From Solwaraspora sp. WMMA2056 (GTDB lineage: Bacteria; Actinomycetota; Actinomycetes; Mycobacteriales; Micromonosporaceae): a stretch of 64,000 nt of DNA. The position numbers were made by a program, and so were the translations under genes. How positions within the stretch are numbered: position 1 is the first letter of the stretch; each line of letters starts with the position of its first letter. The notes under the pieces were generated by a model that ran no database searches, was not told where the DNA came from, and saw nothing but the letters and a program-made list of their open reading frames with translations. Location: positions 6,014,001 to 6,078,000 of the forward strand of contig NZ_CP128360.1 of the NCBI RefSeq assembly GCF_030345095.1. The letters run 5' to 3'. Below, piece after piece: positions 26,796 through 44,248 of the stretch.

Positions 26796-28034
26796 TCAGC
26801 CGGGTGGAGCGGGCCGGGCGGTGAAGATGTAGCGGGAGGCGGCGAGCCCGAGCAGAGTCGCGCCGAAGACGACCACGCCGACGGTGCCGACACCGCCGAC
26901 GGCGACCAGCGCGCCGACCGCGATCGGGCCGGTGGTCTGCCCGACGCTGCGGGAGAGGGCTTCGGTGGCGGCGGCTGTCGCGCGCAGCTCCGGGTTCCAG
27001 TTGACGCTGATCGCGATGGACAGCGGCATCAGGGCACCCAGGCAGGTGCCGAGCAGCACGAGGGTCAGGGCGACGGCACCGACGTGCAGTGCCGCGAGCG
27101 CCACCACCGCGTAGGCGGCTGCCGCGAACGGGATGACCAGGTACAGCCGGGTGAACAGCTGCTCGCGGGTGATCCGCCGCAGCGACATCCGGTTGATGAA
27201 GCTGCCGGTGAAGACGCCGCAGGGGATGAGGATCGACACGCCGACCCGTTCCAGGGTGCTCATGTCGTCGGCGAGCCGGTCGAGCAGCACGCTGACACCG
27301 AAGTGGCTGCCCTGCATCACCAGTCCGATCCCGATGCTGGACAGGATCAGCCAGCGCCGCCGGTGCTGCGCCAGCATCCGGCCGATCGACCGCAGGGTCA
27401 GCCCGATCCGGCGGCGTACCGGCAGGTCGGGTGCGTGAGCGGCGGGTGGGCGGTCGCGGCCGAGTCGGGCCACGACCACGACGCCGAGCAGGACACTGGC
27501 GTAGACCGCGCCGACGGCGAAGACGAGGACCGGCCGGTCCAGGGAGGCGGCGAACGCGCCGAGCGCGAGCGCCGACGCGGCTCCCATGCTGACGAAGGTC
27601 TGCAACAGTGAGTAGCCCCGGTCGCGGGCCTTCGGGTCGCCCTGGGTGAGGTCGGCGACGAGTGCCTGGCCACAGAGCGCGACCGCGCCGCTGGCGAATC
27701 CGGTGAGCAGCCGACCGGCGGTGAGGACGGCGTAGCTCTGGTACAGGCACAGCAGGATCGACACGACGGCGTTGACGAGCATCCCGGGGAGCAGGATCCG
27801 GCGTACCGGGACGAGGTCGAGCAGCGGTCCGGTGAACACGCCGGCGGCAGCGGTGGCCACACTGTGCGCGCCGATGGTGATGCCGATCTGGGCCGGGCTG
27901 AGGTCGAGGCTGCGCCCCAGGCCGACCGAGATCGGGATGTACGCGAGCTGGGTGAGCGGGTTGAAGAACACCAACAGCGGGGGTACGGCGACGGCCAGCC
28001 GGTTGCGGGGCGGGCGGCGGTCCGGGTCGCTCAC
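26796..28034 (-). CDS. MFS transporter
   Basis: A 412-aa major facilitator superfamily permease with twelve predicted membrane helices in two halves. Seen: an N-terminal helix with GRSLDLSPAQIGITIG, the interhelical motif DLVPVRRILLPG resembling the MFS signature D-x-x-G/R-R-R, and a C-terminal RATAAATEALSRSVGQTTGP helix typical of the drug/sugar porter halves. The substrate is unknown. Start: GTG 28034 with a GGGGGG ribosome site. It is the last gene of the operon that begins at 37127, after the GntR gene, so probably an exporter or uptake system for the cluster compound. Confidence 0.75.
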   Translation of the reverse strand: MSDPDRRPPRNRLAVAVPPLLVFFNPLTQLAYIPISVGLGRSLDLSPAQIGITIGAHSVATAAAGVFTGPLLDLVPVRRILLPGMLVNAVVSILLCLYQSYAVLTAGRLLTGFASGAVALCGQALVADLTQGDPKARDRGYSLLQTFVSMGAASALALGAFAASLDRPVLVFAVGAVYASVLLGVVVVARLGRDRPPAAHAPDLPVRRRIGLTLRSIGRMLAQHRRRWLILSSIGIGLVMQGSHFGVSVLLDRLADDMSTLERVGVSILIPCGVFTGSFINRMSLRRITREQLFTRLYLVIPFAAAAYAVVALAALHVGAVALTLVLLGTCLGALMPLSIAISVNWNPELRATAAATEALSRSVGQTTGPIAVGALVAVGGVGTVGVVVFGATLLGLAASRYIFTARPAPPG

Positions 28035-28068
28035 CGGTCGGCCCCCCGATGGTGGGCCCGCCGGTGGT

Positions 28069-28752
28069 TCAGTCGATCGGCCGGTTCTCCAGGAAGGCTT
28101 CCATCTCGTGGAAGGCGACGGACGAGTGGGTCCGGAAGATCGCCTCGGCGGCGTCGAGGTCCCGGTCGCGGCAGGCTTTCAGGAAGCGCCGGTGCTCGTC
28201 GAGGCCGTCGAGGCGGCGTTCCTTCGACCGCATGAAGGCGACCGAGAGCATCCCCGGTGTGGCGGTACGCAGCGACAGCAGCATCTGGGTGAGCCGTGGT
28301 GACCGGGCGGCGTCGTACAGATAGAGGTGGAACGCCCGGTTGAGCTCGACGTACTTGCCGAGGTCCGGGTCGCGTTCCATCTCTTCCTGCATCCGTTCGG
28401 CCTTGTTCAGCTCCGCCTCGGTGATCCGTTCGGCGCAGAGCCGGGCCGCCAGCCCTTCGAGGGTCTCGCGCAGCAGCCGAATGTCGCGCAGCTCGGCGGC
28501 GTCGATGGCGGTGACGGTGGCCACCTTCCGGGCATGGACCTTGATCAGCCCTTCGGCGGCCAGGTCGCGCATTGCTTCGCGGACCGGGGTGGGGCTGACG
28601 CCCAGCAGCTGGGCGATCTCGGTCTGAACGATCCGTGAGCCCGGCTTCAGGGTGCCGTCGACGATCGCCGAGCGCATCCAGTCCCGGACGCGCTCGTGCA
28701 CCGTCCCCGAGATTCCGGCGAACGACGTGATCCCGTGGTCCGCGAACGACAC
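28069..28752 (-). CDS. GntR-family regulator, FCD (FadR) type
   Basis: A 227-aa transcription factor. Seen: winged helix-turn-helix GTLKPGSRIVQTEIAQLLGV then SPTPVREAMRDLAAEGLI in residues 30-70, and an FCD effector domain with ELNRAFHLYLYDAARSPR and DEHRRFLKACRDRDLDAAEA containing the usual D-x4-H-type metal-binding residues. Such regulators bind small organic acids. Start: GTG 28752 with GAGG upstream; the frame remains open upstream without a family match. It sits inside the cluster, with a palindrome in its own upstream region, so it probably autoregulates and controls the operon. Confidence 0.85.
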   Translation of the reverse strand: MSFADHGITSFAGISGTVHERVRDWMRSAIVDGTLKPGSRIVQTEIAQLLGVSPTPVREAMRDLAAEGLIKVHARKVATVTAIDAAELRDIRLLRETLEGLAARLCAERITEAELNKAERMQEEMERDPDLGKYVELNRAFHLYLYDAARSPRLTQMLLSLRTATPGMLSVAFMRSKERRLDGLDEHRRFLKACRDRDLDAAEAIFRTHSSVAFHEMEAFLENRPID

Positions 28753-28808
28753 GGTCCTGCCCTCGATTCTCCCCCTGGAGCGCGCCCCTCGGCACACCCG
28801 GCGACGCT

Positions 28809-28826
28809 TCGATTCTACAGAATCGA
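28809..28826. promoter_or_regulatory. Palindromic operator, TCGATTC-N4-GAATCGA
   Basis: An 18-bp dyad, seven-base arms around TACA, 57 bp upstream of the GntR gene start. A half site CTCGATTCT lies at 28762-28770, immediately before the GntR start codon. Position and symmetry suit an autoregulatory site. No other copy of the full dyad was noticed in the window. Confidence 0.6.
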
Positions 28827-28870
28827 GGCGACCGGGTGGCACGGCGATCGTGCGGGTACGCCGTCATGCG

Positions 28871-30169
28871 TCAGCTCCCGTTCTCCCGGCGGTCGATCTC
28901 GGCATCGGCGAGCGTCCACCGGCGCAGCGCCGTCAGCCGCCAACCGAGGAACGCCATGATCACCGCGCAGGCCAGGCCGCCGGAGACCATCGCGAACGCC
29001 GGACTGGTCAGGCTCGCCGTCGCACCGGCCCGCGCGTCGCCGAGCAACGGTCCCCCGGTCACCACGCCGATGTGGACCGAGGAGAGCCGGCCCCGCAGGT
29101 GGTCCGGCACGCTGAGCTGCAGGACGGTCTGGCGGAACACCGCCGAGACGACGTCGGCGGCACCGGCGACCATGAGCAGGGCCAGCGTCAGCGGCAGCCA
29201 GTGCGACAGGCCGAACCCGGCGATCGCCAGACCCCACACGACGATCGACACGATCACCGCCCGGCCCTGCCTGGTCACCGCGACGACCCAGCCCGAGGTG
29301 AGGGCACCGATGAGGGCCCCCGCGCCCGGGGCCGCGTGCAGCAGCCCGACGGTCACCGCGTCGCCGCCGAGCTGGCCGAGGGCGATCGCCGGGAACAGCG
29401 CCCGCGGCATCCCGAAGAACATGGCGTTGAGGTCGGCGAGGAAACAGCCCAGCACCGCGGGCTTGCTCCGCAGGTAGGTCAGGCCCTCGACCACCGAACG
29501 GATCCCCGGCTTGGTGACGGCGTGCGCCGGCGGCATCGGCCGCATCCGGCTGAGCACCGCGATGGAGACCAGGAACGTGACGACGTTCAGCGCGTACGTG
29601 CTGGACAGCCCGAGCCCGGCGATGATCACGCCGGCGACGGCCGGCCCGACGATCGCGCCGACCTGGGTGAGAGTCTGGTTCAGCGCGAAGGCCGACGGCA
29701 GCACCTCCCGGCGGACCAGGCCGGCCACGGCGGCACTGCGAGCCGGGCTCTCCAGCGCCGACAGCCCGGCCGAGACCGCCACCAGGACGAAGATCGCCCA
29801 GATCGGCGGCCGGTCGAGCAGGGCCAGCAGGGCCAGGCCGCCGACGACGACCGCCAACATGCTCTCGGTGGCCACCAGCAGGCGGCGGCGGTCGACGGCG
29901 TCGGCGACCGAGCCGCCCAGCAGCGAGCAGACCATCAGCGGGATCAGCTGGGCCAGGCTGGCCAGGCCCACCATGAGAGTGGACCCGGTCAGCACGTAGA
30001 CCTGGTACGGCACAGCGACCCGGGTCATCTGGGTGCCGAGGATCGCCACGGCGTGTCCGGTCCACAGCCGCCGGAAGTCGGGCGACTCGCGCAGCGGGGT
30101 GACGTCGATGACCAGGCGCTGGCGCAGGGACCTGCGCTGCGCCCGGCCCTGGTTGTCGGTGGTGGTCAC
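28871..30169 (-). CDS. MFS transporter (EntS-like, MFS_3)
   Basis: A 432-aa permease of the major facilitator superfamily with about twelve membrane helices. Seen: N-terminal SPDFRRLWTGHAVAILGTQMTRVAVPYQVYVLTGS, given here in parts as FRRLWTGHA and VAVPYQVYVLTGS, and GGSVADAVDRRRLLV with the loop 2-3 motif. The PF05977-like pattern (S-x-x-F-R-R-L-W) is found in exporters such as EntS, so it probably exports a product of the operon. Start: GTG 30169, four nt after the M24-like gene, hence translationally coupled. Its end is 118 bp from the GntR gene. Confidence 0.8.
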   Translation of the reverse strand: MTTTDNQGRAQRRSLRQRLVIDVTPLRESPDFRRLWTGHAVAILGTQMTRVAVPYQVYVLTGSTLMVGLASLAQLIPLMVCSLLGGSVADAVDRRRLLVATESMLAVVVGGLALLALLDRPPIWAIFVLVAVSAGLSALESPARSAAVAGLVRREVLPSAFALNQTLTQVGAIVGPAVAGVIIAGLGLSSTYALNVVTFLVSIAVLSRMRPMPPAHAVTKPGIRSVVEGLTYLRSKPAVLGCFLADLNAMFFGMPRALFPAIALGQLGGDAVTVGLLHAAPGAGALIGALTSGWVVAVTRQGRAVIVSIVVWGLAIAGFGLSHWLPLTLALLMVAGAADVVSAVFRQTVLQLSVPDHLRGRLSSVHIGVVTGGPLLGDARAGATASLTSPAFAMVSGGLACAVIMAFLGWRLTALRRWTLADAEIDRRENGS

Positions 30170-30173
30170 GCGG

Positions 30174-31364
30174 TCAGCCGCACCGGAAGAACTCGCGGGG
30201 CACCGCGTGCAACGATTCGAGTCCGGACGCGGTGACCCGGAACATCTCGCCGTACTGGACCCCGGCGAGGCCGTCCGGTGTCACCACGTTGGGCTGCACG
30301 ACCAGGCACATCCCCTCCTGGTACACGAAGCCCTCGGGTTCGCCCCGGTAGGTCTGCCGGGTACGGACGATGGCCGGTAGCTGGGCGCAGCCGTGCACCA
30401 GGTCGTCGTAGATGGTGAAGCCCTGCCGTTGGGCGACCTCCGCCGCGTCGAGGATGTCCGACACGGTCGCACCGGGCCGGATCGCCGTGCAGACCGCGTC
30501 GAAGACCTCGAGCGCGACGTCGTGCAGCCGGGCGTACAGCGGGGTCGGGTCCGCGCCGATCGTGTAGCTGCGCAGGACCTGGGCGGAGTAGCCGGCGTAG
30601 TTCGTGCTGAGCTCCGCGACGAGGGCGTCACCGACCTGCAGTCGCCGGTCGGCCTGGTGCTGGCAGGGCACACCGCCGCGCGGGTCGGACATCTGGGTCG
30701 CGACCATGAAGTGGATGCCGTTGATCCCGCCGTCGGCCAGGTAACTGTCTTCGATGATCCGGGCCACCTCGTGCTCGGTCATGCCGGGCCGGGCCTGCTC
30801 CGCGATCGCCAACGCGGAGGCGTCGCACATCCGCGCCGAGGCGATCAGCCGCTGCATCTCCTCGTCGCTCTTGATCTGGCGCTGGTCCACCAGCTGGCCG
30901 CCGAACTCGACCCATTCCACCCCGGGCAGCGCCTCGGTGAGCCGGGCGTGCTCCCGCCAGGTGATGGTGCCGGCCAGGCCCACCCGGCCGGTCGTGACGC
31001 CGCGCTCACGCAGGCATTCGATCAGGGTGGGGACGGTGTCCACCGAGCCGGTCGGTGCCGAGCCGCCGAACCGTACGTCGGGGAACCGGGCCATCCGACG
31101 GGCCAGCGGCAGATGGTTCGACAGCTGGATCAGCATGGTCGGATCGCCGTGCCGGGGGTACAGGATCCAGGCCTCCCGGGTCGACCACCAGTCGCTGAGG
31201 TACAGCACGTTCGGGTCGCGGCCGCCCCGGCCGCACACCACGACGAGTTGCAGGTCGAGGGCGTCCATCCGGGCCCGGACCGCGGCGTCACGTCGGGCGA
31301 ACTCCGCATCGGAGAACCGCGGGTAGTCGCGGTCGGTCAGTGGTTGCGCAGCGATGGTCGTCAC
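30174..31364 (-). CDS. Creatinase/M24-fold protein lacking canonical metal ligands
   Basis: A 396-aa pita-bread-fold protein of the Xaa-Pro dipeptidase/creatinase group, with an N-terminal creatinase-N domain (about 25-160) and a C-terminal M24 domain. In M24 peptidases the metal is held by two Asp, a His and two Glu. Here the aligned positions read GDALVAEL (Asp to Glu), YSAQVLRSY (Asp to Gln), VHGC (His kept), VVQPN (Glu to Gln) and VQYGEMFRV (Glu kept). Three of five ligands are replaced, so it is likely not a metallopeptidase; creatinase is the precedent for a metal-free relative. Start: ATG at 31364; the first residues are MTTIAAQPLTD. Confidence 0.78.
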   Translation of the reverse strand: MTTIAAQPLTDRDYPRFSDAEFARRDAAVRARMDALDLQLVVVCGRGGRDPNVLYLSDWWSTREAWILYPRHGDPTMLIQLSNHLPLARRMARFPDVRFGGSAPTGSVDTVPTLIECLRERGVTTGRVGLAGTITWREHARLTEALPGVEWVEFGGQLVDQRQIKSDEEMQRLIASARMCDASALAIAEQARPGMTEHEVARIIEDSYLADGGINGIHFMVATQMSDPRGGVPCQHQADRRLQVGDALVAELSTNYAGYSAQVLRSYTIGADPTPLYARLHDVALEVFDAVCTAIRPGATVSDILDAAEVAQRQGFTIYDDLVHGCAQLPAIVRTRQTYRGEPEGFVYQEGMCLVVQPNVVTPDGLAGVQYGEMFRVTASGLESLHAVPREFFRCG

Positions 31365-31417
31365 AGGTCCTCACAAAAGGGTTGGTGAAGGGGGTGGGCC
31401 CGGGGCCCGAGGGCGGC

Positions 31418-33187
31418 CTAGAGGCCGCCCTCGAGTCCCATCCGGGCGTTGAGGCGGTTGTAGCCGACGAGCCCGACGAGCAGGACACCGAAGGTGACGA
31501 TGCCGAAGGCCGCCACGGTGGAGAACTGTCCGTCGCCGGCCATGTCGAACATGACGACCGCCGCGGTGCGGGTCTGCGGACCCGCGAGGTAGAGGGTGGT
31601 CTGCAGTTCGCGGAAGCTCATCACCATGGTGATCAGGGCGCCCGCGAGCAGGGCCGGCGACAGCAGCGGTACGACGATCGTCCAGATCGCCCGCGCGAAG
31701 CTCGCCCCGGCCACCTGCGCCGCCTCCTCCAGCTCGGAGCTGATCTGCAGCATCCGGGCGCTGACCAGCCGGGACACCACCGCGATGATGATGGTGATGT
31801 ACGCGATCACCAGCGCCCAGTGCGTCGAGTAGATCGGCAGCGGCGTGATCAGGAAGATCCACAGGAAGCTCACGCCGACGATGACGTTGGGCAGCGCCAT
31901 CGGCACCGAGGTCAGCAGGTAGAGCAGCCGGCCACCGGCGATCCGCCGGGCGGAGAACCACGCCGCCAGGGTCGACAGGACCAGTACGCCGGCGCTGGCG
32001 AGCACGCCGACCAGGAGGCTGTTGGCGAAACCCTGCAGGATGTTGGGCGTGCGCAGGGCGGCCACGTAGGAGTCCAACGACAGCGAGCTGAGCGACTCCC
32101 AGCTGACCTGCCGGAAGAACGGGTTGAGTGACATCCACAGCAGCATCAGCAGCGGAAGCAGGATCACCAGTGTCAGCACGACGAAGGTGAGCGCCGCCAC
32201 CGGCAGCCGCCACCGGCCCAGGTCCATCCGGACCGAGGAGAAGTTCTTGCCGCTGATCACGGCGTACCGCTCCCCCGCCTGGTTGAACCGGTCGTACCAC
32301 CAGATCATCACCACGGCGCCGACCAGCATGAAGACGGCGTAGGTGCTGACCAGGCCGACGTTGCTCGGCGGCGTACTCGTCCGCAGGTAGATCTCCGAGG
32401 CGTAGGTGAAGATCCGTTCGTTGACGCCGAGGAACCAGGGGATCTCGAACGCCTCCCAGGCCCGCATCAACGCCATGATCGCGACGGCGGCGATCCCTGG
32501 TGCGGCGAGCGGCAGCGAGATGTCCCGTACCGCCCGCAGCTTCGATGCCCCGGACACCTCGGCGGCCTCCTCCAACGACGAGTTCATCGAGGAGAAGACG
32601 GTGACCACGAACAGGTAGACCATCGGCACCATGGTGAGCCCGTTGACCAGGATCAGGCCCTCCATGGAGTAGACGTTGAACAGGGTGCCGTCGGTGCCGG
32701 TCAGGTTGCGCCAGGCCACGTTGATGGCACCGATGTTCGGGCTGGCCAGGAAGGTCCAGGCCACCGGGATGAGGATCCCGGGGACGGCCATCTGGACGAC
32801 CGTGAGTACGCCCACCACGTTGCGCAACGGCACGTTCGTCCGGGCGACGATCCAGGCCAGGAAGGTGCCCAGGGCGAGGGCGACGAGCGTGGAGCCGACC
32901 GCGAACTGCACCGTGGTCCAGGTGACGCTGAGCAGCCGGCCGGACGCGAACGCGTCCCGGAAGTTGTCGAGGGTGAATTCGAGGGAGAAGAAGTCGGCGT
33001 CGGTGGGCCGGGCGTCCTTGACGCTGGTGTACAGCAGGATGGCGATCGGCAGCGCCACCTGGGCCAGCAGGATGACCAGGACCAGCCCGTAGACCACCCC
33101 GCGGGGGGACAACGCCCCCCGCAGGGCGCGGAAGCTGTCGACCAGGCCGGTGACGCGCCGGGTACGGCCTTCCACAAGGGTCACCAT
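31418..33187 (-). CDS. ABC transporter permease, fused double domain (Fe3+/polyamine type)
   Basis: A 589-aa inner-membrane permease containing two permease domains in tandem, about 12-14 membrane helices in all. Seen: two EAA loops that dock the ATPase, LEEAAEVSGASKLRAVRDIS near residue 215 and LEEAAQVAGASFARAIWTIV near 495. Such fused permeases serve FbpB-like iron(III) importers and also some polyamine, thiamine or phosphonate importers. Start: GTG/ATG region at 33187, 5 nt after the solute-binding protein gene, so coupled. It works with the SBP (33193-34311) and ATPase (35922-37127). Confidence 0.88.
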   Translation of the reverse strand: MVTLVEGRTRRVTGLVDSFRALRGALSPRGVVYGLVLVILLAQVALPIAILLYTSVKDARPTDADFFSLEFTLDNFRDAFASGRLLSVTWTTVQFAVGSTLVALALGTFLAWIVARTNVPLRNVVGVLTVVQMAVPGILIPVAWTFLASPNIGAINVAWRNLTGTDGTLFNVYSMEGLILVNGLTMVPMVYLFVVTVFSSMNSSLEEAAEVSGASKLRAVRDISLPLAAPGIAAVAIMALMRAWEAFEIPWFLGVNERIFTYASEIYLRTSTPPSNVGLVSTYAVFMLVGAVVMIWWYDRFNQAGERYAVISGKNFSSVRMDLGRWRLPVAALTFVVLTLVILLPLLMLLWMSLNPFFRQVSWESLSSLSLDSYVAALRTPNILQGFANSLLVGVLASAGVLVLSTLAAWFSARRIAGGRLLYLLTSVPMALPNVIVGVSFLWIFLITPLPIYSTHWALVIAYITIIIAVVSRLVSARMLQISSELEEAAQVAGASFARAIWTIVVPLLSPALLAGALITMVMSFRELQTTLYLAGPQTRTAAVVMFDMAGDGQFSTVAAFGIVTFGVLLVGLVGYNRLNARMGLEGGL

Positions 33188-33192
33188 GTCGG

Positions 33193-34311
33193 TCAGCCCG
33201 TCACGAAGATCGACTGGTGCTGCTCGACGCGGGTGTCGTAGTCACCGAAGTTGTCGGTGGTCTCGAAGAACAGCTCGCTCTGCAGGATGCCCTCGGCCGA
33301 CGAGGGGATCGGCGCTCCCGGCTTGATCGGGATCTTCACCACGGCCTCGCCGACCGTGTTCTGCCAGTCGTCGCTCATCAGCCACTCCAGGTACAGCCGG
33401 GCGGTGGCCGGGTGCGGCGCGTCCGCCAGCGCGAAGTACATGTCCGGCTGGGCGATGGTCACCGGCGTGGTGACGATGTCGATCGGTGCCCCGGCGACGA
33501 TCAGGTCCCGGATCGTGCGGGTCGCGGTCTGCGGGAGTGCGACGTCGAACTCCCCGGCCGCGAGCTTCTCCAGGCCGTCGGCACCGGAGTAGACGACCGG
33601 TTCGTTGGCGGCGATCGCCTCCATCAACTCCAGGCCGGGTTCCTCACCCAGGTGCGCCAGCATCCCGGCGAACCAGTCGAGCTGGTCGATGTTGATGCCG
33701 AACCGGCCCTTCCACTTCGGGTCGGTCAGGTCCTCGTAGGTGGCGGGGGCCTCCGACGCGGTGACCTTGTCGGTGTTGTAGACGATGTGGAAGGTGAAGA
33801 AGTCGGCCACCGAGCAGACGCAGTCCGGGTAGGCCCGGTCCGCCGGCAGGCCGCCCTCCCCGCGCGGGTCGTACGCCAGGCACAGGCCCTCGTCACGGCA
33901 GAGGGTGTTGTCCTCCAACGGGCCGCCCTGAATGATGTCGGCGCTGGGCCGGCCGGCCGCGTTCTCGGTGATGATGCGCTCGATCAGTTCGAGCGTGCCG
34001 CCGGAGGTGTACTCCAGCTTCACCCACGGATACTCCTCGATGAACAGGTCGATCTGCTTCTCGGCGGCGGCAGCCGGGGCGCTGAAGTAGTAGTTGAGCT
34101 GCCCGCCCTCCGCCTTCGACGCCTCCGCCAGATCGGCCAGGTAGGTGGCGTACTCCTCGTCGGTCATGTCCACCGTCGACGCCACCGCGAGCTCCTCGGG
34201 CAGTGCGTTCGCCGCCGCCTCGTCGGACCCGCCGCCGCAGGCGGCCAGGGCGAGCGACAGCGCCGCCAACGGCGCGCCGATCCGTACGGTGGTCGTGGTA
34301 CGACGTCTCAT
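33193..34311 (-). CDS. ABC transporter substrate-binding lipoprotein
   Basis: A 372-aa extracellular solute-binding lipoprotein. Seen: a Tat/Sec-like opening MRRRTTTTVRIG, lipobox LALAAC-GGG, then a two-lobed binding protein pattern: LNYYFSAPA, FIEEYPWVKLEY, FFTFHIVYNTDKV and DLTDPKWKGRFGI, as in the FbpA/PotD-like family. An unusual Cys-rich stretch (TLCRDEGLCLAYD then DCVCSVADF) gives four extra cysteines, probably two disulphides near the ligand cleft. Start: ATG 34311 with GGAGG upstream; it overlaps the stop of the preceding gene as ATGA, so translation is coupled. The ligand is unknown; the neighbouring enzymes suggest an amide or carbamoyl compound. Confidence 0.88.
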   Translation of the reverse strand: MRRRTTTTVRIGAPLAALSLALAACGGGSDEAAANALPEELAVASTVDMTDEEYATYLADLAEASKAEGGQLNYYFSAPAAAAEKQIDLFIEEYPWVKLEYTSGGTLELIERIITENAAGRPSADIIQGGPLEDNTLCRDEGLCLAYDPRGEGGLPADRAYPDCVCSVADFFTFHIVYNTDKVTASEAPATYEDLTDPKWKGRFGINIDQLDWFAGMLAHLGEEPGLELMEAIAANEPVVYSGADGLEKLAAGEFDVALPQTATRTIRDLIVAGAPIDIVTTPVTIAQPDMYFALADAPHPATARLYLEWLMSDDWQNTVGEAVVKIPIKPGAPIPSSAEGILQSELFFETTDNFGDYDTRVEQHQSIFVTG

Positions 34312-35030
34312 GTCGGCACCTCCGTCGGGGTGGACGCCGAGGCGAGCTTGGCGGCGAGTTCCGGCAGCCGCAGGACCCAGCCCTGGCAGCGACCGAGCTG
34401 CTGCAGACCCAGCTCCTGCAGGTCCTCGCCGAACCAGGTGGCGACGCACTCGGCGATGGTGATCACCTTGTACGCCTTGCAGCTCGCGTCGTAGGCGGTG
34501 GACTGGATGTCGGCGTTGGTGTTCGCACCGGCGAGGATCAGCGTGTCGACGCCGAGCGCCTTGGTGAGCCATTCCAGGTCGGTCTGGTAGAAGGCGCTCA
34601 GCGACTTCTTGGTCTTGATGATGTAGTCGCTGTCGGCGACCGGGACCGCGAAGTCGGGCTGGAAGGTGCCGTCCTGCACGTCGACCGACTCGTCGGGCAC
34701 CGGTCCGTACGGGCTCGGCGACTCGCCGATCGCGGCCCACGCCCGGTGGACCCGCATGGCCGCGCGGGCCTCGGTCTCCACCGGCCGCAGCGCGGACAGT
34801 ACGTGGATCACGGCCATCCCGCTCTCGCGGGCCAGCGTCAGCAGCTGCTCGGTGTTGGCGAGCAGTTCGTCGCGGACGCCGGGCGGGAACGGCGCGGTGG
34901 GGGTCAGCCGGCGTTGGGTCATTTCGACCGTCACGACCGCGGACCGGGCCGGGACGATCGGGACGGCGTCGTTGATGACCTGGAGGAATTCCGCCCGGTC
35001 GTAGATGTCGATGGTAGGGCCGGTAAGCAT
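34308..35030 (-). CDS. Isochorismatase-fold protein without catalytic Asp and Cys
   Basis: A 240-aa member of the cysteine hydrolase family that includes isochorismatase, nicotinamidase and N-carbamoylsarcosine amidase. The fold is recognisable (SAVVTVEMTQ, IIKTKKSLSAFYQTDLE, ILAGANTNADIQSTAYDA). The catalytic triad is not: the N-terminal Asp is Glu36 (VEM instead of IDM), Lys is present (KTKK), and the nucleophile position in TNxC is Asp (TNAD). So it is probably catalytically inactive or uses another chemistry. It lies directly next to an intact paralogue. Start: ATG 35030; the stop overlaps the SBP start by ATGA. Confidence 0.82.
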   Translation of the reverse strand: MLTGPTIDIYDRAEFLQVINDAVPIVPARSAVVTVEMTQRRLTPTAPFPPGVRDELLANTEQLLTLARESGMAVIHVLSALRPVETEARAAMRVHRAWAAIGESPSPYGPVPDESVDVQDGTFQPDFAVPVADSDYIIKTKKSLSAFYQTDLEWLTKALGVDTLILAGANTNADIQSTAYDASCKAYKVITIAECVATWFGEDLQELGLQQLGRCQGWVLRLPELAAKLASASTPTEVPT

Positions 35031-35082
35031 ATCTATGTCCCTTTCGAGGAGTGGAAGTCAGCTGGCGCGCAGCAGCCGGGCG

Positions 35083-35844
35083 TCAGACGCCGGCCGTCAC
35101 CGGTGCCCCGGCGGCGGCCTTGGCGGCGGTGAGCCGCTCGAGGGCCTCAGCGGAGGACATCGCCAGGCCGATCGTGCGGGGGTAGTTCTGCAGCGCGAAC
35201 TCGTGCAGGTCCTTGCCGTGGGTGGAGCCGACCGAGTCGGTGACGATGACCGGTGTCCACATCCGGTTGTAGGCGTCGAACGAGAAGTTGGAGACACAGT
35301 TGTTGGTGTTGATGCCGACGACGAAGAACGTGTCCACGCCGAGGCAGCGGATCAGGTGCTCCACGTCGGTCGACAGGAAACTGCTGGTCATCTGCCGCTT
35401 GGTGTTGATGATGTAGTCGCCCGGCTTGGGGCCGAGGATCGGCATCACGTCCCACTCGAAGTAGCCTTCGGGCGCGTCCGGGTGGTAGCCGGGCCGGGGG
35501 GCCAGGCCGTACGGCGTGCCGGGCCGACCGGTGCTCTGCACGATCGCGGTCCGCGGCTGCATGCCACGCTCGACCAGGCGTTGGTAGACCATGATGTGGA
35601 TGACCGGCAGCCCGAGCTCGCGGCCGGCGTCCAGGAAGGCGGCGGCGTTCGGCAGGATCCGGTCGGCCACGTTCTGCGGGAACGACGACCAGTCCTTGTC
35701 GATCTGCCGTACGTGCATGTCGATCTGCACGACGGCGGTCTTCGTGAAGTCGATCTCCAGTGCGTCGTTGAGCCTGGTCAACGTCTCGGTGCGGTCGATG
35801 ACCTCGACGGCGTGGCTCTTCGGGTGCACCTGGTTGTACGTCAT
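35083..35844 (-). CDS. Isochorismatase-family cysteine hydrolase, intact triad
   Basis: A 253-aa amidohydrolase-type member of the isochorismatase superfamily. Seen: Asp42 in VVQIDMH, Lys in IINTKRQMTSSFLSTDVE, and the nucleophilic Cys in GINTNNCVSNFSFDAY, so the Asp-Lys-Cys triad is complete. Relatives hydrolyse nicotinamide, N-carbamoylsarcosine, biuret, ureidoacrylate or maleamate, and the actual substrate here is unknown. Start: ATG 35844. It is separated by 52 bp from its degenerate paralogue, and the two may form a heteromeric enzyme. Confidence 0.88.
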   Translation of the reverse strand: MTYNQVHPKSHAVEVIDRTETLTRLNDALEIDFTKTAVVQIDMHVRQIDKDWSSFPQNVADRILPNAAAFLDAGRELGLPVIHIMVYQRLVERGMQPRTAIVQSTGRPGTPYGLAPRPGYHPDAPEGYFEWDVMPILGPKPGDYIINTKRQMTSSFLSTDVEHLIRCLGVDTFFVVGINTNNCVSNFSFDAYNRMWTPVIVTDSVGSTHGKDLHEFALQNYPRTIGLAMSSAEALERLTAAKAAAGAPVTAGV

Positions 35845-35921
35845 GTGTCTCTCCTCGATGGGTCGGATCGCGTCGCTCAGGCGGCGCGCAGTTGCGGCGC
35901 ATCAGTCAGGCGGCGCGTCGC

Positions 35922-37127
35922 TCACGCGGCGCTGGCGGCTGGCGCGCGGTGGGGCAGCAGGACGATGTGGTGCGGCTCGATCCGCACGTGGACCCGGGTG
36001 CCCGGCGCGGCGCCCGCGCTGCCGCTGACCCGGGCCGTGACCAGGTGGCCGGACTCCAGCTCGACGAGCAGTTCGGCGAACGGGCCGAGGAACGAGGTGG
36101 ACCGGACCGCACCGGCGATGGTCTGCGCCGCCGTCTCCGGGGTCGGTTCCCGCAGCTGCAGATGCTCCGGGCGGACGGTGAGCATGACCGGTTCGGAGAT
36201 CCGAGCGGCGTCGTGCGGCTGTCGGGCCACCTGCAGCCGCCCGATCTGGGTCTGCACCAGCCAGTGGTCGTCGTCGGCCTCGACGATGAGGCCGTCGAGG
36301 GTCTCGCTCTCGCCGACGAAGTTGGCGGCGAACACGTCGGCGGGGCGCGAGTACACCCGGGCCGGCGTGCCCTGGTCCTTGATCTCGCCGCTTTCCAGGA
36401 CCAGGATCCGGTCCGAGACCGCCATCGCCTCCTCCTGGTCGTGGGTGACGTAGAGGACCGTGATGCCGAGCCGTTGCTGCAGGTCGCGGATCTCCTGGCG
36501 AACTTCCTTGCGGAGTTTGGCGTCGAGGTTGGACAGCGGTTCGTCGAACAGGATCAGCTCGGAGCGCGACACGAGCGCGCGGGCGACCGCCACCCGCTGC
36601 TGCTGCCCGCCGCTGAGCTTGGTCGCCGAGCGTCGCGCGGCGTGGGCGAGCCCGAGCTGCTCCAGCACTTCGGTGGTCCGGGCGACGATCTCGGGCTTGG
36701 GCAGTCGGCGGCGCCGCAGCGGGTAGGCGACGTTGTCGAAGGCGGACATGTGCGGCCAGATGGCGTACGACTGGAACACCATCCCGATCTGGCGTCGGGC
36801 CGGTGTCAGGCGGATGCGCCGCTCGGACGAGTAGACGACCCGGCCACCGATGGATATCTCGCCGGAGGTGGGGGTCTCCAGTCCGGCGACCGAGCGCAGG
36901 ATCGTGGTCTTGCCACAGCCGCTCGGGCCGAGCAACGTCACGAACTCGCCCCGGGCGATGTCGAAGCTGATCCCCCGGACGGCGTGCACGTCGCCCTCGG
37001 GGGTCCGGTACTGCTTGTGCAGGTCGACGATCGACACCATCGGCGCGAGGTCGGGGGCAGCTGGTGCCCCGGCCCCGGCGACGGCGTCGACCGGTTGGGC
37101 GAGGGTCACGCTTGGCATCGCGGTCAT
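35922..37127 (-). CDS. ABC transporter ATP-binding protein (PotA/FbpC type)
   Basis: A 401-aa ATPase of the CUT/spermidine-iron importer group. Seen: an Ala/Pro leader of about 30 residues, Walker A GPSGCGKTT, Q-loop FQSYAIWPHMSAFDN, signature LSGGQQQRVAVAR, Walker B LILFDEPLSNLD, His switch VTHDQEEA, and a C-terminal TOBE domain (VMLTVRPEHL onward, residues 310-400). It energises the permease at 31418-33187. Start: ATG 37127 with GGGAGTGAG upstream. It is the first gene of the operon, and its promoter faces the divergent hydrolase gene. Confidence 0.92.
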   Translation of the reverse strand: MTAMPSVTLAQPVDAVAGAGAPAAPDLAPMVSIVDLHKQYRTPEGDVHAVRGISFDIARGEFVTLLGPSGCGKTTILRSVAGLETPTSGEISIGGRVVYSSERRIRLTPARRQIGMVFQSYAIWPHMSAFDNVAYPLRRRRLPKPEIVARTTEVLEQLGLAHAARRSATKLSGGQQQRVAVARALVSRSELILFDEPLSNLDAKLRKEVRQEIRDLQQRLGITVLYVTHDQEEAMAVSDRILVLESGEIKDQGTPARVYSRPADVFAANFVGESETLDGLIVEADDDHWLVQTQIGRLQVARQPHDAARISEPVMLTVRPEHLQLREPTPETAAQTIAGAVRSTSFLGPFAELLVELESGHLVTARVSGSAGAAPGTRVHVRIEPHHIVLLPHRAPAASAA

Positions 37128-37139
37128 CTCACTCCCTTT

Positions 37140-37154
37140 TCTATAGACTAGAGA
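37140..37154. promoter_or_regulatory. Imperfect dyad upstream of the catabolic operon
   Basis: TCTATAGACTAGAGA is a 15-bp dyad with one mismatched pair, 13 bp upstream of the ATPase start codon and across the likely transcription start region. A possible -10 TAGGGT on the minus strand lies just upstream of it. Inferred as a repressor site for the GntR protein or another factor, although its half-sites do not match those at the GntR promoter. Confidence 0.4.
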
Positions 37155-37296
37155 AGACCCTAGGGACGGCGTGTTACAGCCAACGAGCCGTGAATGTTGC
37201 GATGCGGTTAGCTACCTCTTACGAACCCGCGACAGGCGCAGGCCGCAGGCCTGAACGGCGGCGAGCCCCGCGACCGGCGCGCCGCGGAACGCCGAG

Positions 37297-37347
37297 TGGA
37301 TCTAGAAGGATTTGGCCGGTATGCCGACCACAATCCTTCTAGATCCA
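37297..37347. repeat. 16-bp inverted repeat in front of the hydrolase gene
   Basis: 37297-37312 is the exact reverse complement of 37332-37347, with a 19-nt spacer. Each arm contains TCTAGA. It lies 45 bp upstream of the hydrolase start codon and 170 bp from the ATPase start. It could fold as an mRNA hairpin in the hydrolase leader, or be a widely spaced operator for the divergent pair. Confidence 0.75.
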
Positions 37348-37391
37348 ACCCATGTCGACCCCCGACAGCCCCCGGACGAGAGGAGCGGCAG

Positions 37392-38333
37392 GTGCAAGAA
37401 CCCGCAGCGATCATCGCGGCCGAGTGCGTCGTCCCGACCGACGACGGCGAGTTGCCCGGCACTGTCGACCTGCCCGACGGTCCGGTCCGCGCGGCGGTGG
37501 TCGTGGTGCACGGATCGGCGGCCGGTCACCGGTCCTACTGTTGCTACACCCACGTCGGCCGGGTGCTCACCGCACACGGTGTGGCGGTGCTGCGCTACGA
37601 CCGTCGGGCACCGTTGGAGCCCGGTCGCGACGTACCGCTGCGGTTGCAGGCCGCCGACGCGGCGGCTGCGGCCAGGACGGCGCGCGAGATCGTCGGCGGC
37701 GATGTGCGACTCGGCCTGTGGGGGCTGAGCCAGGGTGCCTGGGCTGCGCCGATGGCCGCCGCACACCATCCGGAGCTGTTCACCTTCCAGATCCTGGTGT
37801 CCTCGTGCGGGGTGTCACCGGCGGCGCAGATGCGGCACGGCACCGCCGAGCAGCTGCGCCGGCACGGGTACGGCGACACCGAGCTGACCGGCCTGGCCGA
37901 GCTGCGCACCGGGTGGGAGGCGTACCAGCGGGGGCAGCTGGACCGTCCGACGGCGCAGGCGCTCGTCGACCGGTACGCGGACCGCCCCTGGTTCCCGCTG
38001 GCGTACGTGCCCCGCGAGTTGCCGTCTGCCGGCGGCGGCTGGCGGGACATGGACCTGGATCCGACCGGGATCTTCGCCGGGGTGCGCTGCCCGACGCTGC
38101 TGTTCTACGGCGAGACCGACAGCTGGATGCCGATCGACGACAGCATCGCGGCGTGGCGGCGAGCCTCGTCGGCGGAGCTGACCGTGCACCGCGTCGCCGG
38201 CCACGACCATCTGCTGATGCGCGAAGGCTCCGACGCGGACCCGGCCGTCGGCGACAACCGGGCCGCCGAGGAGGCCATCAGCCAGCAGTACGCCGACCAG
38301 ATGGCCGCCTGGCTTACGCTCGGACTCCGCTGA
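37392..38333 (+). CDS. Alpha/beta hydrolase
   Basis: A 313-aa hydrolase of the alpha/beta fold, close to dienelactone hydrolase/BAAT-like enzymes. Seen: oxyanion-hole VVVVHGSAAGHRSY, the nucleophile elbow GLWGLSQGAW (G-x-S-x-G), acid DSWMP after LLFYGET, and catalytic His in VAGHDHLLM. A cap region lies between the nucleophile and the acid (residues 145-245). Cytoplasmic; there is no signal peptide. Start: GTG 37392 with AGGAG 7 nt upstream. It is divergent from the operon, consistent with a role in the same pathway, for example opening an ester or lactone of the imported compound. Confidence 0.85.
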   Translation: MQEPAAIIAAECVVPTDDGELPGTVDLPDGPVRAAVVVVHGSAAGHRSYCCYTHVGRVLTAHGVAVLRYDRRAPLEPGRDVPLRLQAADAAAAARTAREIVGGDVRLGLWGLSQGAWAAPMAAAHHPELFTFQILVSSCGVSPAAQMRHGTAEQLRRHGYGDTELTGLAELRTGWEAYQRGQLDRPTAQALVDRYADRPWFPLAYVPRELPSAGGGWRDMDLDPTGIFAGVRCPTLLFYGETDSWMPIDDSIAAWRRASSAELTVHRVAGHDHLLMREGSDADPAVGDNRAAEEAISQQYADQMAAWLTLGLR

Positions 38334-38382: not shown

Positions 38383-41300
38383 CTACATCGACTCAGTCCT
38401 TTGCCGTTGAGGGGGCGCACAGTGCAATCCGATCGAGTCGGCCGTCACCGTGCCGCTGGCGATCAACTGCCCGATGACCGCACTCAGCCGTCCTCGGATC
38501 TCGGAACCGAGTCGACCCCACCCGTACATTCGGGAGACGACAGTCATCAGTTCCTCCCGAGCGACGGTGCCGCCGCTGTCGAGCAGCCGGGTGACAGCTA
38601 GGCGCAGCTCCTCGTCGGAGACCTGTTCCACCTTGCGCTGCACCTTGTCAGTGGGAAGCCGGACAGCAGTAACGGTCCGGTCCGGCACGTCGATGAAGTC
38701 GCCGATCCGGGTGACGTCGGCGAGACGGATCGCGGCGTCCAGGTTCGTCTTGATCTTGGATCCGAACCGCCCGATGTCCCACGCGTCCCGCAGCCGTTGG
38801 CGGACCAGTTCGACGTGCACCGGGCCCTCTACGGCAGCGATCTCCTCGACACCGCCGCGCATCTCGTAGCGGCTAGATGCATCAGACTTGTCGACCCAGT
38901 ACGGCAGCGGGCTCACCTCAGCCGTCCGGTACGGCTCGGTCCAGTCCGGGACCGCATCGGTGATGACTTCCGCCGTCCGCACTACCGGCCGTTCGATTCC
39001 GGGTTCCCGATAGGTGAGGCGCCCCCGTACCGGGGCGTTGACGGCCGCGACGATCGCAGCCCGGAGACGTTCCTCCTCATGACGACGGTTGCGGTACCAG
39101 GCGGTTCCCCAGATACGGTGCAGATTCCACCCGAGACCACGGAGCACCTGCTCCCGGAGCCGGTCTCGGTCCCGGGCCGCTGGCGCCGAGTGGTACATCG
39201 CACCGTCGCATTCGATGCCGAGAGCAAAGGCCCCCGGATGACCCGGATGCCACAAGCCGATGTCGATGCGGTAGCCGGCTGCGCCAACCTGCGGTTCGAC
39301 CCGGTAGCCCCAGGAGCGGATGACGTCGATCACCGAGTCCTCGAACGGGCTGTCGGTGCCGCGCCCACTCGGCCCGAGGTCGAGTGCCAAGGCGGCCGGT
39401 CCACGCTCGGCGAAGTCAAGGTAGCCGCGCAGGAAGCTGACGCTCTCGTTGTCCGAGTCTGGAATGTCCCCGGCCCGGACGGAAGAAACGATCTCCACGC
39501 GTTGACGAGCGCGGGTGATCGCCACGTTGAGCCGACGCCAGCCCTTGTCCCGGTTGAGAGCACCGAAGTTCGTACTAACCTTGCCGTTGGCGTCAGGACC
39601 GTAGCCGATCGAGAAGATCATGACGTCGCGTTCGTCGCCTTGGACCGCCTCCAGGCTCTTGACGAAGAAGCCGTGCAGCCGGTCGGTGCTGAAGTGGCGT
39701 TCGAGGTCAGGTCGCTCGGTCAGCGCCCGGTCCAGCGCCGACTGGATCGCGTCGGCCTGGGCCACCGAAAAAGTGACCACGCCGAGGCTCAGCCCCGGCC
39801 GGGTGGAGTAATGGTGCAGGACCCGCTTCACCACCTGATCGGCCTCGATCGGGTTGTCTCGGGTACCACTGCGACCGTAGACGCCGGCAACGGGCAGAAG
39901 CTCGACACCATGGTCCGAGTCGTCACTGTGCGCGCCAGGGAAGGTGATCAGCTTGCCCTCGTAGAAGGCCTGGTTGGAGAAGGCGATCAACGCCTCGTGC
40001 CGGCTGCGGTAGTGCCAGCGCAGACCGAGATTCCGGAAAGCTCCGGATGCCTTCGCCAGTTCGAGGATCGACTGGAAATCTGCGATGTCGGTGTCGTCAT
40101 CGTCGGTGTCCTCGCCGAGCCGGGCGAAGAACGACGTGGGCGGCAACTGGCGGTCGTCGCCTGCGGTGATCAGGGCGTGGCCCCGGTAGATACAGTTGAT
40201 CGCGTCTCCGGGGGTCACCTGCGACGCCTCGTCGAAGATCACCACGTCGAAGCTGAGGTCTGCCGGTAGGTACTGGCTGACCGCCAGCGGCGACATCATG
40301 AAGCAGGGCTTGATCCCGAGCACGGTCCGGCGTGTTTCGCCGATCAGCTGGCGTACAGGGATGTGCCTGCGCTTCTTCATCCCTTCCCGGCGGATCCGCG
40401 CCGGCTCACCGATGTCGGCACGCTCAGGTCGACGTCTGTTGACCGCCTGGATGATGTCGCTGGTGGCAGTCGGCACGAGTTGCCGGTCGAGTTCGCGGTA
40501 TCGCTCGACAAGCACGTCACGCTCCCCTGCCGGCAGGGGATGCAGGGCGGGATCGGTCCGGATGATCTCGTCGGCCCAGCCCCGGAGCAGTGCCCGCTCA
40601 ATGACCTTGGGCACCTCGCCGCCCAGGATGCCCTGCTGGATACAGAAGTCGATGACCCCGTCGAGCTGGTGGCCGGCCAGCTCGGCGCGCGCCTCCTGGT
40701 AGGCGAACCACTCGTCCTGCCCGGCGCTGTCCTGACGAAGTTCCTCGATCAGTTCCCGCGCGCTGTCGAAGTCGTCGAGTTCGGCGAGGAGTTCCAGGTG
40801 CCGGGACGGCTCGAAGGCTTCGACGACACTGTCACGGTTGGTCCGCCAACTGGCATACGCCTCGGCGAGGTTGCCGGTCTCGCGGGTCTCGGCGAGCCGT
40901 TTGACCTGCCCATCGGTCAGGACTGCATCGACACCGGTGCGGACACGTCGGGTCGCCGCTGCCCAGGCGAGAGCATCACTGACAGCCGCTGCGTCGGTCT
41001 CGACGCCTTGGTAGAGCAGGTCACCGAAGCTCGCCCGATGGCTGGGCGCCGATGCAGTGAGAGCGTCATGCGCGGCTATGACGCTCTGTCGTAGCCGTAG
41101 CAGTTCGTCTGCCTGAGCGAGTGTGAGGTTTCGGCCGGTCGCCGCACTGACCGCACCTGCCCGTACGGCGACCGCAGTCAGCGGCGCGATGTGGTCACGC
41201 AACCAGCTGATCGCGACCTCGAACGGCTCCAGCATGAGCTCGGTCCGGGGACCGAGCTGCGGTGTCGGCACCAGGCCGGACCGCCACCGATTCAGGTCGG

Positions 41301-43830: not shown

Positions 43831-44248
43831 CTGGCTTCCTGCGTCCGTCCACACAGCAAACCATCCTGCCAGCACACGATGACCGGCGGGCCATGTGCCC
43901 TGTCGAGTAATGGAGGCTGAAGTGGACAGATTTCGACCGACACGGCGGCTCGACCTACCTGGAACGTTGCCATCGGCCGCAAAGCGACATCGCTGACCGG
44001 CCGACCAGCCGAGGCGCTGACGATCGCCAGCCGAGTAGGCACTGTCCGCCTGACCGTCCATCTAGCTCGTTCCACACCAGAGCACAGTCCACATGGACAG
44101 ACGATCCAGGTCCTTCCTCGGTTTTGCCAGCGTCGCGCTGGGTTCAAGATCTTTCACGATGCGAGCGTCTCGATGTCGCAAACCCGCCTCCGGCGGGCGA
44201 CTCGGCCATGCTCGCGCTCAACAGGCCCATAGCACCAAGAGGAGATCG
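43831..44248. other. 418-bp divergent promoter region of the defence genes
   Basis: No gene supported. It should hold both promoters for the helicase-nuclease (minus) and exonuclease (plus). It is visibly richer in A/T than most intergenic DNA here. The only structure noticed is a small hairpin CCCGCC-TCC-GGCGGG near 44187-44201, about 50 nt before the exonuclease ribosome site AGGAG (44239-44244). Confidence 0.45.

Follow-up and report, generated by a model that had tools for sequence, protein, structure and literature searches.

A conserved nine-gene importer and hydrolase block in Solwaraspora with an altered isochorismatase paralogue and an M24 protein lacking the metal-ligand set

The gene block and its conservation

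We have analysed a stretch of 64,000 nucleotides (hereafter, the window) from Solwaraspora sp. WMMA2056 (NZ_CP128360.1, positions 6,014,001 to 6,078,000), focussing on a block of nine minus-strand genes at 26796-37127. These encode an ATP-binding cassette (ABC) importer with its solute-binding protein (SBP), two isochorismatase-like proteins (iso1 and iso2), a creatinase-fold protein of the M24 family, two major facilitator superfamily (MFS) transporters and a GntR/FCD regulator. The first gene, at the 37127 side, is that of the ABC ATPase, and from there down to 26796 the order is as follows:

35922..37127, minus strand: ABC ATPase with a TOBE_2 domain, PotA/PhnT2-like (Pfam ABC_tran, TOBE_2); ortholog in the loci of 6/6 relatives
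35083..35844, minus strand: iso1, isochorismatase-like hydrolase (Pfam Isochorismatase, 79.9 bits)
34308..35030, minus strand: iso2, isochorismatase-like paralogue (Pfam Isochorismatase, 82.0 bits, cut-off 27)
33193..34311, minus strand: SBP of the SBP_bac_6 class (Pfam), its start resembling a lipobox (by eye); overlaps iso2 by 4 bp
31418..33187, minus strand: fused double ABC permease (BPD_transp_1, two stretches in one protein)
30174..31364, minus strand: M24 protein (Pfam Peptidase_M24 and Creatinase_N; AlphaFold2 model with a pLDDT of 91.2)
28871..30169, minus strand: MFS_3-type transporter (Pfam), EntS-like below cut-off
28069..28752, minus strand: GntR/FCD regulator (Pfam GntR and FCD), GTG start at 28752 (open reading frame, ORF, open to 28842)
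26796..28034, minus strand: MFS_1-type transporter (Pfam); ortholog in the loci of 6/6 relatives

The original prediction, made from the letters of the window, had described nine packed minus-strand ORFs accompanied by one on the plus strand. All ten are present where it placed them, and Pfam agrees with every family it had named within the block. The tight packing, on the other hand, is only partly right. Intergenic gaps are, from the low end upward, 34, 118, 4, 53, 5, -4, 52 and 77 bp (the value of 118 presumes the GTG start of gntR), that is, short gaps (4, 5 and -4 bp) are found at three places only, the other five range from 34 to 118 bp, and gntR has a putative operator of its own.

A search with iso2 through 354 genomes of the family (E<=1e-20) matched eight, seven of them with orthologs at 88-100% identity and the eighth (G706) with a distant relative at 31%. 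The seven carriers are the genome of the window, five others of the same genus (G001-G005) and one of another genus (G026). Six of the seven members of the genus thus carry the block, and the seventh, G006, gave no iso2 match at that threshold. The comparison of gene order that the original prediction had proposed gave a clear outcome, the order of the nine genes being identical in the window and in the loci of all six relatives (L021-L026). Flanking genes are mostly different among carriers; one is common to the window and L021, three to L022 and L024, and one to L022 and L023. The same order in the window and six relatives, with most flanks differing, is therefore not a product of chance. 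In two of the six relatives an ORF resembling a siderophore-interacting protein (by eye) is divergent from the ABC ATPase gene (L022:12530-13549 and L024:12998-13828). All nine genes are under purifying selection, with a mean pairwise dN/dS (nonsynonymous to synonymous substitution ratio) of 0.135-0.209 (simple Nei-Gojobori count, 21 pairs each). These data support the view that the block is one conserved unit of importer, hydrolases, MFS transporters and GntR regulator. Alignments A1-A3 and A5 cover six of the seven clusters, the near-identical L021 being left out.

The isochorismatase pair and the M24 protein

The two isochorismatase-like proteins, which share 32% identity, differ in their catalytic residues. 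In iso1 the Asp-Lys-Cys triad is intact (D42, K149, C183) in the window and in 6/6 orthologs. At the same positions iso2 has E36-K141-D174, with Asp changed to Glu and Cys to Asp, again in the window and in 6/6 orthologs. Because E36 and D174 replace Asp and Cys in 7/7, iso2 is not a canonical cysteine hydrolase, and the earlier picture of two ordinary active enzymes is not supported. Mean dN/dS is 0.194 for iso2 and 0.138 for iso1, so that iso2 is degenerate yet maintained under purifying selection. Fourteen other isochorismatase relatives were aligned, of which 11 have the full triad, two have Lys and Cys (the rows of these, own1 and G706, begin past the Asp position) and one, a protein from a Rhodococcus plasmid, lacks the triad; own3, from the genome of the window, had no usable row and was left out. 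In the tree iso1 and iso2 are sisters (support 92/84), which suggests that they likely come from one duplication, although this is not certain because both lie on long branches.

The NCBIfam models for BiuH (44.5 and 41.0 of 370 bits for the two isochorismatase-like proteins) and RutB (41.3 and 32.1 of 377.95 bits) score below their cut-offs, far below in the case of BiuH, and N-carbamoylsarcosine amidohydrolase (1nba) is related only weakly in sequence (E 6.1e-4 for iso1, 1e-6 for iso2). Among 396 genomes of the phylum iso1 had three matches, one of them in its own genome and two at 32-33%, and a scan of a collection of genome contigs gave 18 stretches, none of them a relative. Single-copy isochorismatase relatives (ca. 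33% identity) adjoin other importers, namely a NitT/TauT-like ABC set in G105 and a tripartite-like transporter set on one G241 contig (both by eye), and an ABC set in Haladaptatus. The fold obtained for iso2 alone was too weak and was not used. Prompted by a QG motif, we also considered iso2 Q216 as a Gln of the BiuH/TrtA type given in trans and dropped it, the BiuH-type QGG being an insertion that has no counterpart in iso1, iso2 or the single-copy relatives.

What could such an altered protein do? One possibility is that iso2 is an enzyme of altered chemistry in which Asp174 acts as acid or nucleophile, an idea compatible with the interpretation given at the end of this text. The Glu, Asp and Lys are invariant in 7/7, and PhzD is an isochorismatase-fold enzyme that functions without Cys. 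However, both catalytic residues have changed, and D-K-C is kept in the four single-copy relatives compared (Haladaptatus, G105 and two of G241), and we consider this option rather unlikely. Another model comes from the TrtA-BiuH-AtzF operon, which, according to its description (PMC7948467), includes two isochorismatase-like hydrolases, as the block does, with active sites completed across the dimer; in TrtA a residue from one subunit completes the active site of the other. By analogy with this cross-subunit arrangement, a pair of active iso1 and inactive iso2 would be a reasonable model. The likeness has its limits, since according to that source both TrtA and BiuH have a Cys-Asp-Lys triad, which iso2 lacks, and Pfam finds no AtzF-type amidase in the block.

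Some further isochorismatase-fold proteins were seen along the way. The Rhodococcus sp. DK180 plasmid (L146, 6064-6663) has one annotated as a cysteine hydrolase without the catalytic Cys. Near one isochorismatase relative in G241 there are ORFs resembling nitrile hydratase subunits (L033:1817-2527 and just below, by eye). The genome of the window has, outside it, a second adjacent pair of the family (G000:C1:6597703-6598958; L001, L002), both members with Lys and Cys and one with a QGG motif like that of biuret hydrolase 6xjm.

The M24 protein is unusual as well. M24 metallopeptidases bind their metals through the ligands D, D, H, E and E. At these columns, taken from prolidase alignments, the protein has E251, Q262, H324, Q357 and G372, that is, four of the five are replaced and the canonical set is unmet. 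The residues are typical of the whole clade: in 35 sequences (34 of the 80 loci described below plus the window) E251, Q262, H324 and G372 are each found in 35 and Q357 in 34. The nearest folds to the model are the ectoine hydrolase DoeA and creatinase, so calling it a creatinase-fold protein was sound, with the qualification that the metallopeptidase ligand set is absent. The NCBIfam models DoeA_2 (66.2 of 575 bits) and DoeA (49.6 of 613 bits) are below cut-off, and no creatinase model appears among the ten matches listed at E<=0.001.

At E<=1e-40 the M24 protein matched eight of 396 phylum genomes, the genome of the window included. The scan of genome contigs confirmed 91 M24 loci, of which the best 80 (L054-L133, 33-42% identity) were considered. 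Their titles name actinobacteria, alpha- and betaproteobacteria, one genome each of Chloroflexi, Acidobacteria and Dormiibacterota, and one haloarchaeon. As neighbours, recognized by eye, we found ABC-ATPase-like proteins in at least 33 loci, alpha/beta-hydrolase-like in at least 21, beta-hydroxyacid-dehydrogenase-like in at least 12, aldehyde dehydrogenases in at least nine and amidohydrolases in at least eight of the 80; these are lower bounds, the simple gene caller having found the M24 cluster in 72 of the 80 loci. A second M24 protein is nearby in at least 15, and those viewed retain more canonical residues (by eye). With such neighbours, the clade is in catabolic company. An isochorismatase relative was present in the available flank of at least one of the 80 loci, a lower bound as many of them are on short contigs, and, apart from this cluster, a Haladaptatus plasmid was the sole place where an M24 protein was seen paired with an isochorismatase. 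Two haloarchaeal plasmids, L046 (Haloarcula sp. GH36, NZ_CP142029) and L045 (Haladaptatus halobius), have an M24 relative with an ABC importer, amidohydrolases and aldehyde dehydrogenase, plus a cyclase-family protein or an asparaginase, and resemble catabolic islands.

Operator-like sites and the flanking region

Three conserved elements precede genes of the block, and a hydrolase gene lies divergent from it:

37136..37154, minus strand: putative GntR operator TCTCTAGTCTATAGARAAG, immediately preceding the ABC ATPase gene; conserved 7/7
28809..28826, minus strand: putative GntR auto-operator, palindrome TCGAYTCTGTAGAATCGA, upstream of gntR; conserved 7/7
37196..37211, minus strand: conserved block CTAACCRCRYCGCAAC, weakly GlnR-box-like
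37296-38333, plus strand: alpha/beta hydrolase (Pfam), adjoining the operon and not a member of it

The first two elements have the core TCTRTAGA in common, and the start region of gntR is alike in the seven genomes. When ten genomes were searched with up to two mismatches, TCTCTAGTCTATAGARAAG gave one site per genome in the 7/7 that bear the cluster and none in the 3/3 without it. Exact matches to TCGAYTCTGTAGAATCGA were restricted to this locus in the same 7/7 and absent from the other 3/3, with a single extra site, of two mismatches, in G003. This pattern fits a dedicated repressor, which would most simply be the GntR protein itself.

The third element is less clear. Upstream of the block the conserved sequence is CTAAC-n6-GCAAC, and three amtB regions of the genus read GTCAC-n6-GAAAC (three of five regions were used, L137 and L138, on the wrong strand, being left out). 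The element of the block has one mismatch in each half-site relative to the GlnR consensus. The exact pattern CTAACCNCNCCGCAACA is found at the locus in four of the five genomes searched; in the genome of the window the locus reads CTAACCGCATCGCAACA and the sole exact match to CTAACCNCNCCGCAACA is elsewhere.

The plus-strand hydrolase had been counted as part of the system, and we have ruled it out as part of the operon. At E<=1e-10 the nearest relative, L021, is the only one with a match, which is split into two pieces that lie in different frames; the five other loci have none. A long inverted repeat, GGATCTAGAAGGATT...AATCCTTCTAGATCC (window 37295-37350), between the hydrolase and the operon is not conserved either and was rejected as an operator. 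Beyond the hydrolase, at 38383-44061 on the minus strand, there is an ORF of 1892 amino acids that by eye resembles a helicase carrying a nuclease-like part at its C terminus, possibly a defence gene.

A putative uptake and degradation operon

The original prediction held that the combination matches no known pathway, and our literature searches (partly judged from titles and the starts of abstracts) revealed no description of an operon with these genes. Ectoine degradation (doe/eut) shares the M24 fold through DoeA, but by Pfam the block is without the deacetylase, transaminase and dehydrogenase families. Likewise, the creatininase, hydantoinase and sarcosine oxidase families of creatine and creatinine catabolism are absent from it. 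The importers PhnSTUV2, FbpABC and PotABCD have the same classes of ATPase, permease and SBP, while here the scores, among the matches listed, are below equivalog cut-offs and the importer is coupled to hydrolases. On the Haladaptatus halobius plasmid (NZ_CP085340), too, an M24 relative has an isochorismatase relative beside it, along with an ABC importer; that cluster differs in having one isochorismatase (D-K-C), a separate single permease and an Lrp/AsnC regulator, and has amidohydrolases and an asparaginase in addition.

Our preferred interpretation, for which we see the chances as evenly balanced, is that the block is an operon for the inducible uptake and degradation of a single small carbon-nitrogen compound, a carbamoyl or guanidino compound being a plausible class of substrate. 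In its general form, import followed by C-N hydrolysis, this agrees with what the original prediction had inferred. The SBP and the fused-permease ABC importer would take it up, and we infer the order of the reactions that may follow. The M24 protein would cleave a non-peptide C-N bond, by ring opening or by amidine, guanidine or amide hydrolysis, probably without a metal. The hydrolysis of an amide or ureide would fall to iso1, a D-K-C cysteine amidase, whose target would be either the imported compound itself or what the M24 protein makes of it. The paralogue iso2 would have been retained as a partner subunit or a ligand-binding protein. GntR/FCD would repress from the two TCTRTAGA operators until the substrate or an intermediate releases it. 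Both MFS proteins would transport a product or surplus substrate. A bolder version, which we advance only tentatively, is that iso1 works only as a heteromeric amidase with iso2, and vice versa, iso2 having given up catalysis to bind or gate the substrate, and that together with a metal-free M24 hydrolase of a widespread clade this makes up a route of degradation that, like its substrate, has yet to be described.

An alternative is that the operon serves detoxification or the inactivation of a competitor's molecule, i.e., that the hydrolases destroy and the MFS pair expels a toxic natural product, cyclic or amide in nature, the importer acting as a scavenger. The best-scoring models are of Bcr/CflA-type efflux for one MFS protein and of EntS and H+-antiporter/macrolide efflux for its companion, and the spread of the block is narrow (iso2 orthologs in 7/354 family genomes). 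Nevertheless, all these efflux matches are below cut-off (EntS reaches 256 bits where its equivalog cut-off is 324, so that "EntS-like" is not supported as a function), and an SBP-dependent importer is hard to square with pure detoxification. We consider this reading unlikely.

Uptake of iron or of an iron chelate is quite improbable; in this reading the importer would be related to FbpABC, and both the EntS-like MFS and the isochorismatase fold would be tied to siderophores. It is true that the closest PDB sequences to the SBP profile are labelled iron-binding (7f6s, E 1.4e-17) and that a siderophore-interacting-like ORF stands beside the ATPase gene in L022 and L024. However, this neighbour is limited to that pair of loci, the same PDB list includes a binding protein for pyridoxal phosphate (6wce), and the Pfam scan of the block found no siderophore-synthesis gene family. 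Moreover, the region that may correspond to the Tyr-Tyr iron ligands of FbpA reads PQ(T/S)ATRT in the SBP, with no Tyr. Cysteines 138, 144, 164 and 166 of the SBP are the same in 6/6 aligned sequences.

Import of 2-aminoethylphosphonate or a polyamine, with the hydrolases unrelated to it, is very improbable: the top NCBIfam models are indeed of polyamine or phosphonate uptake for the ATPase (PotA, 335.7 of 482 bits; PhnT2, 328.6 of 457.7), the fused permease (2-aminoethylphosphonate permease, the best, 120.2 of 247; PhnU2, 115.5 of 593.25), the SBP (best a 2-aminoethylphosphonate SBP model; PhnS2, 32.6 of 392.75) and the GntR protein (PhnR, 84.1 of 271.5), but among the matches listed all are below cut-off and the Pfam scan of the block found no phosphonate enzyme. 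The class of the ligand is not deducible from the sequence of the SBP or the importer.

Returning to the putative uptake-and-degradation operon, three things are added to the earlier picture of this locus: an isochorismatase that is conserved in spite of its degeneration, an M24 clade lacking the metal-ligand set, and the two putative operators. Screening the SBP for ligands would identify the compound, and a reporter assay could draw on the two operator-like sites. The block is a compact route to function for two orphan groups, the nucleophile-less isochorismatase-fold paralogue and this M24 clade, which extends over at least 80 contigs from varied bacteria and one archaeon.

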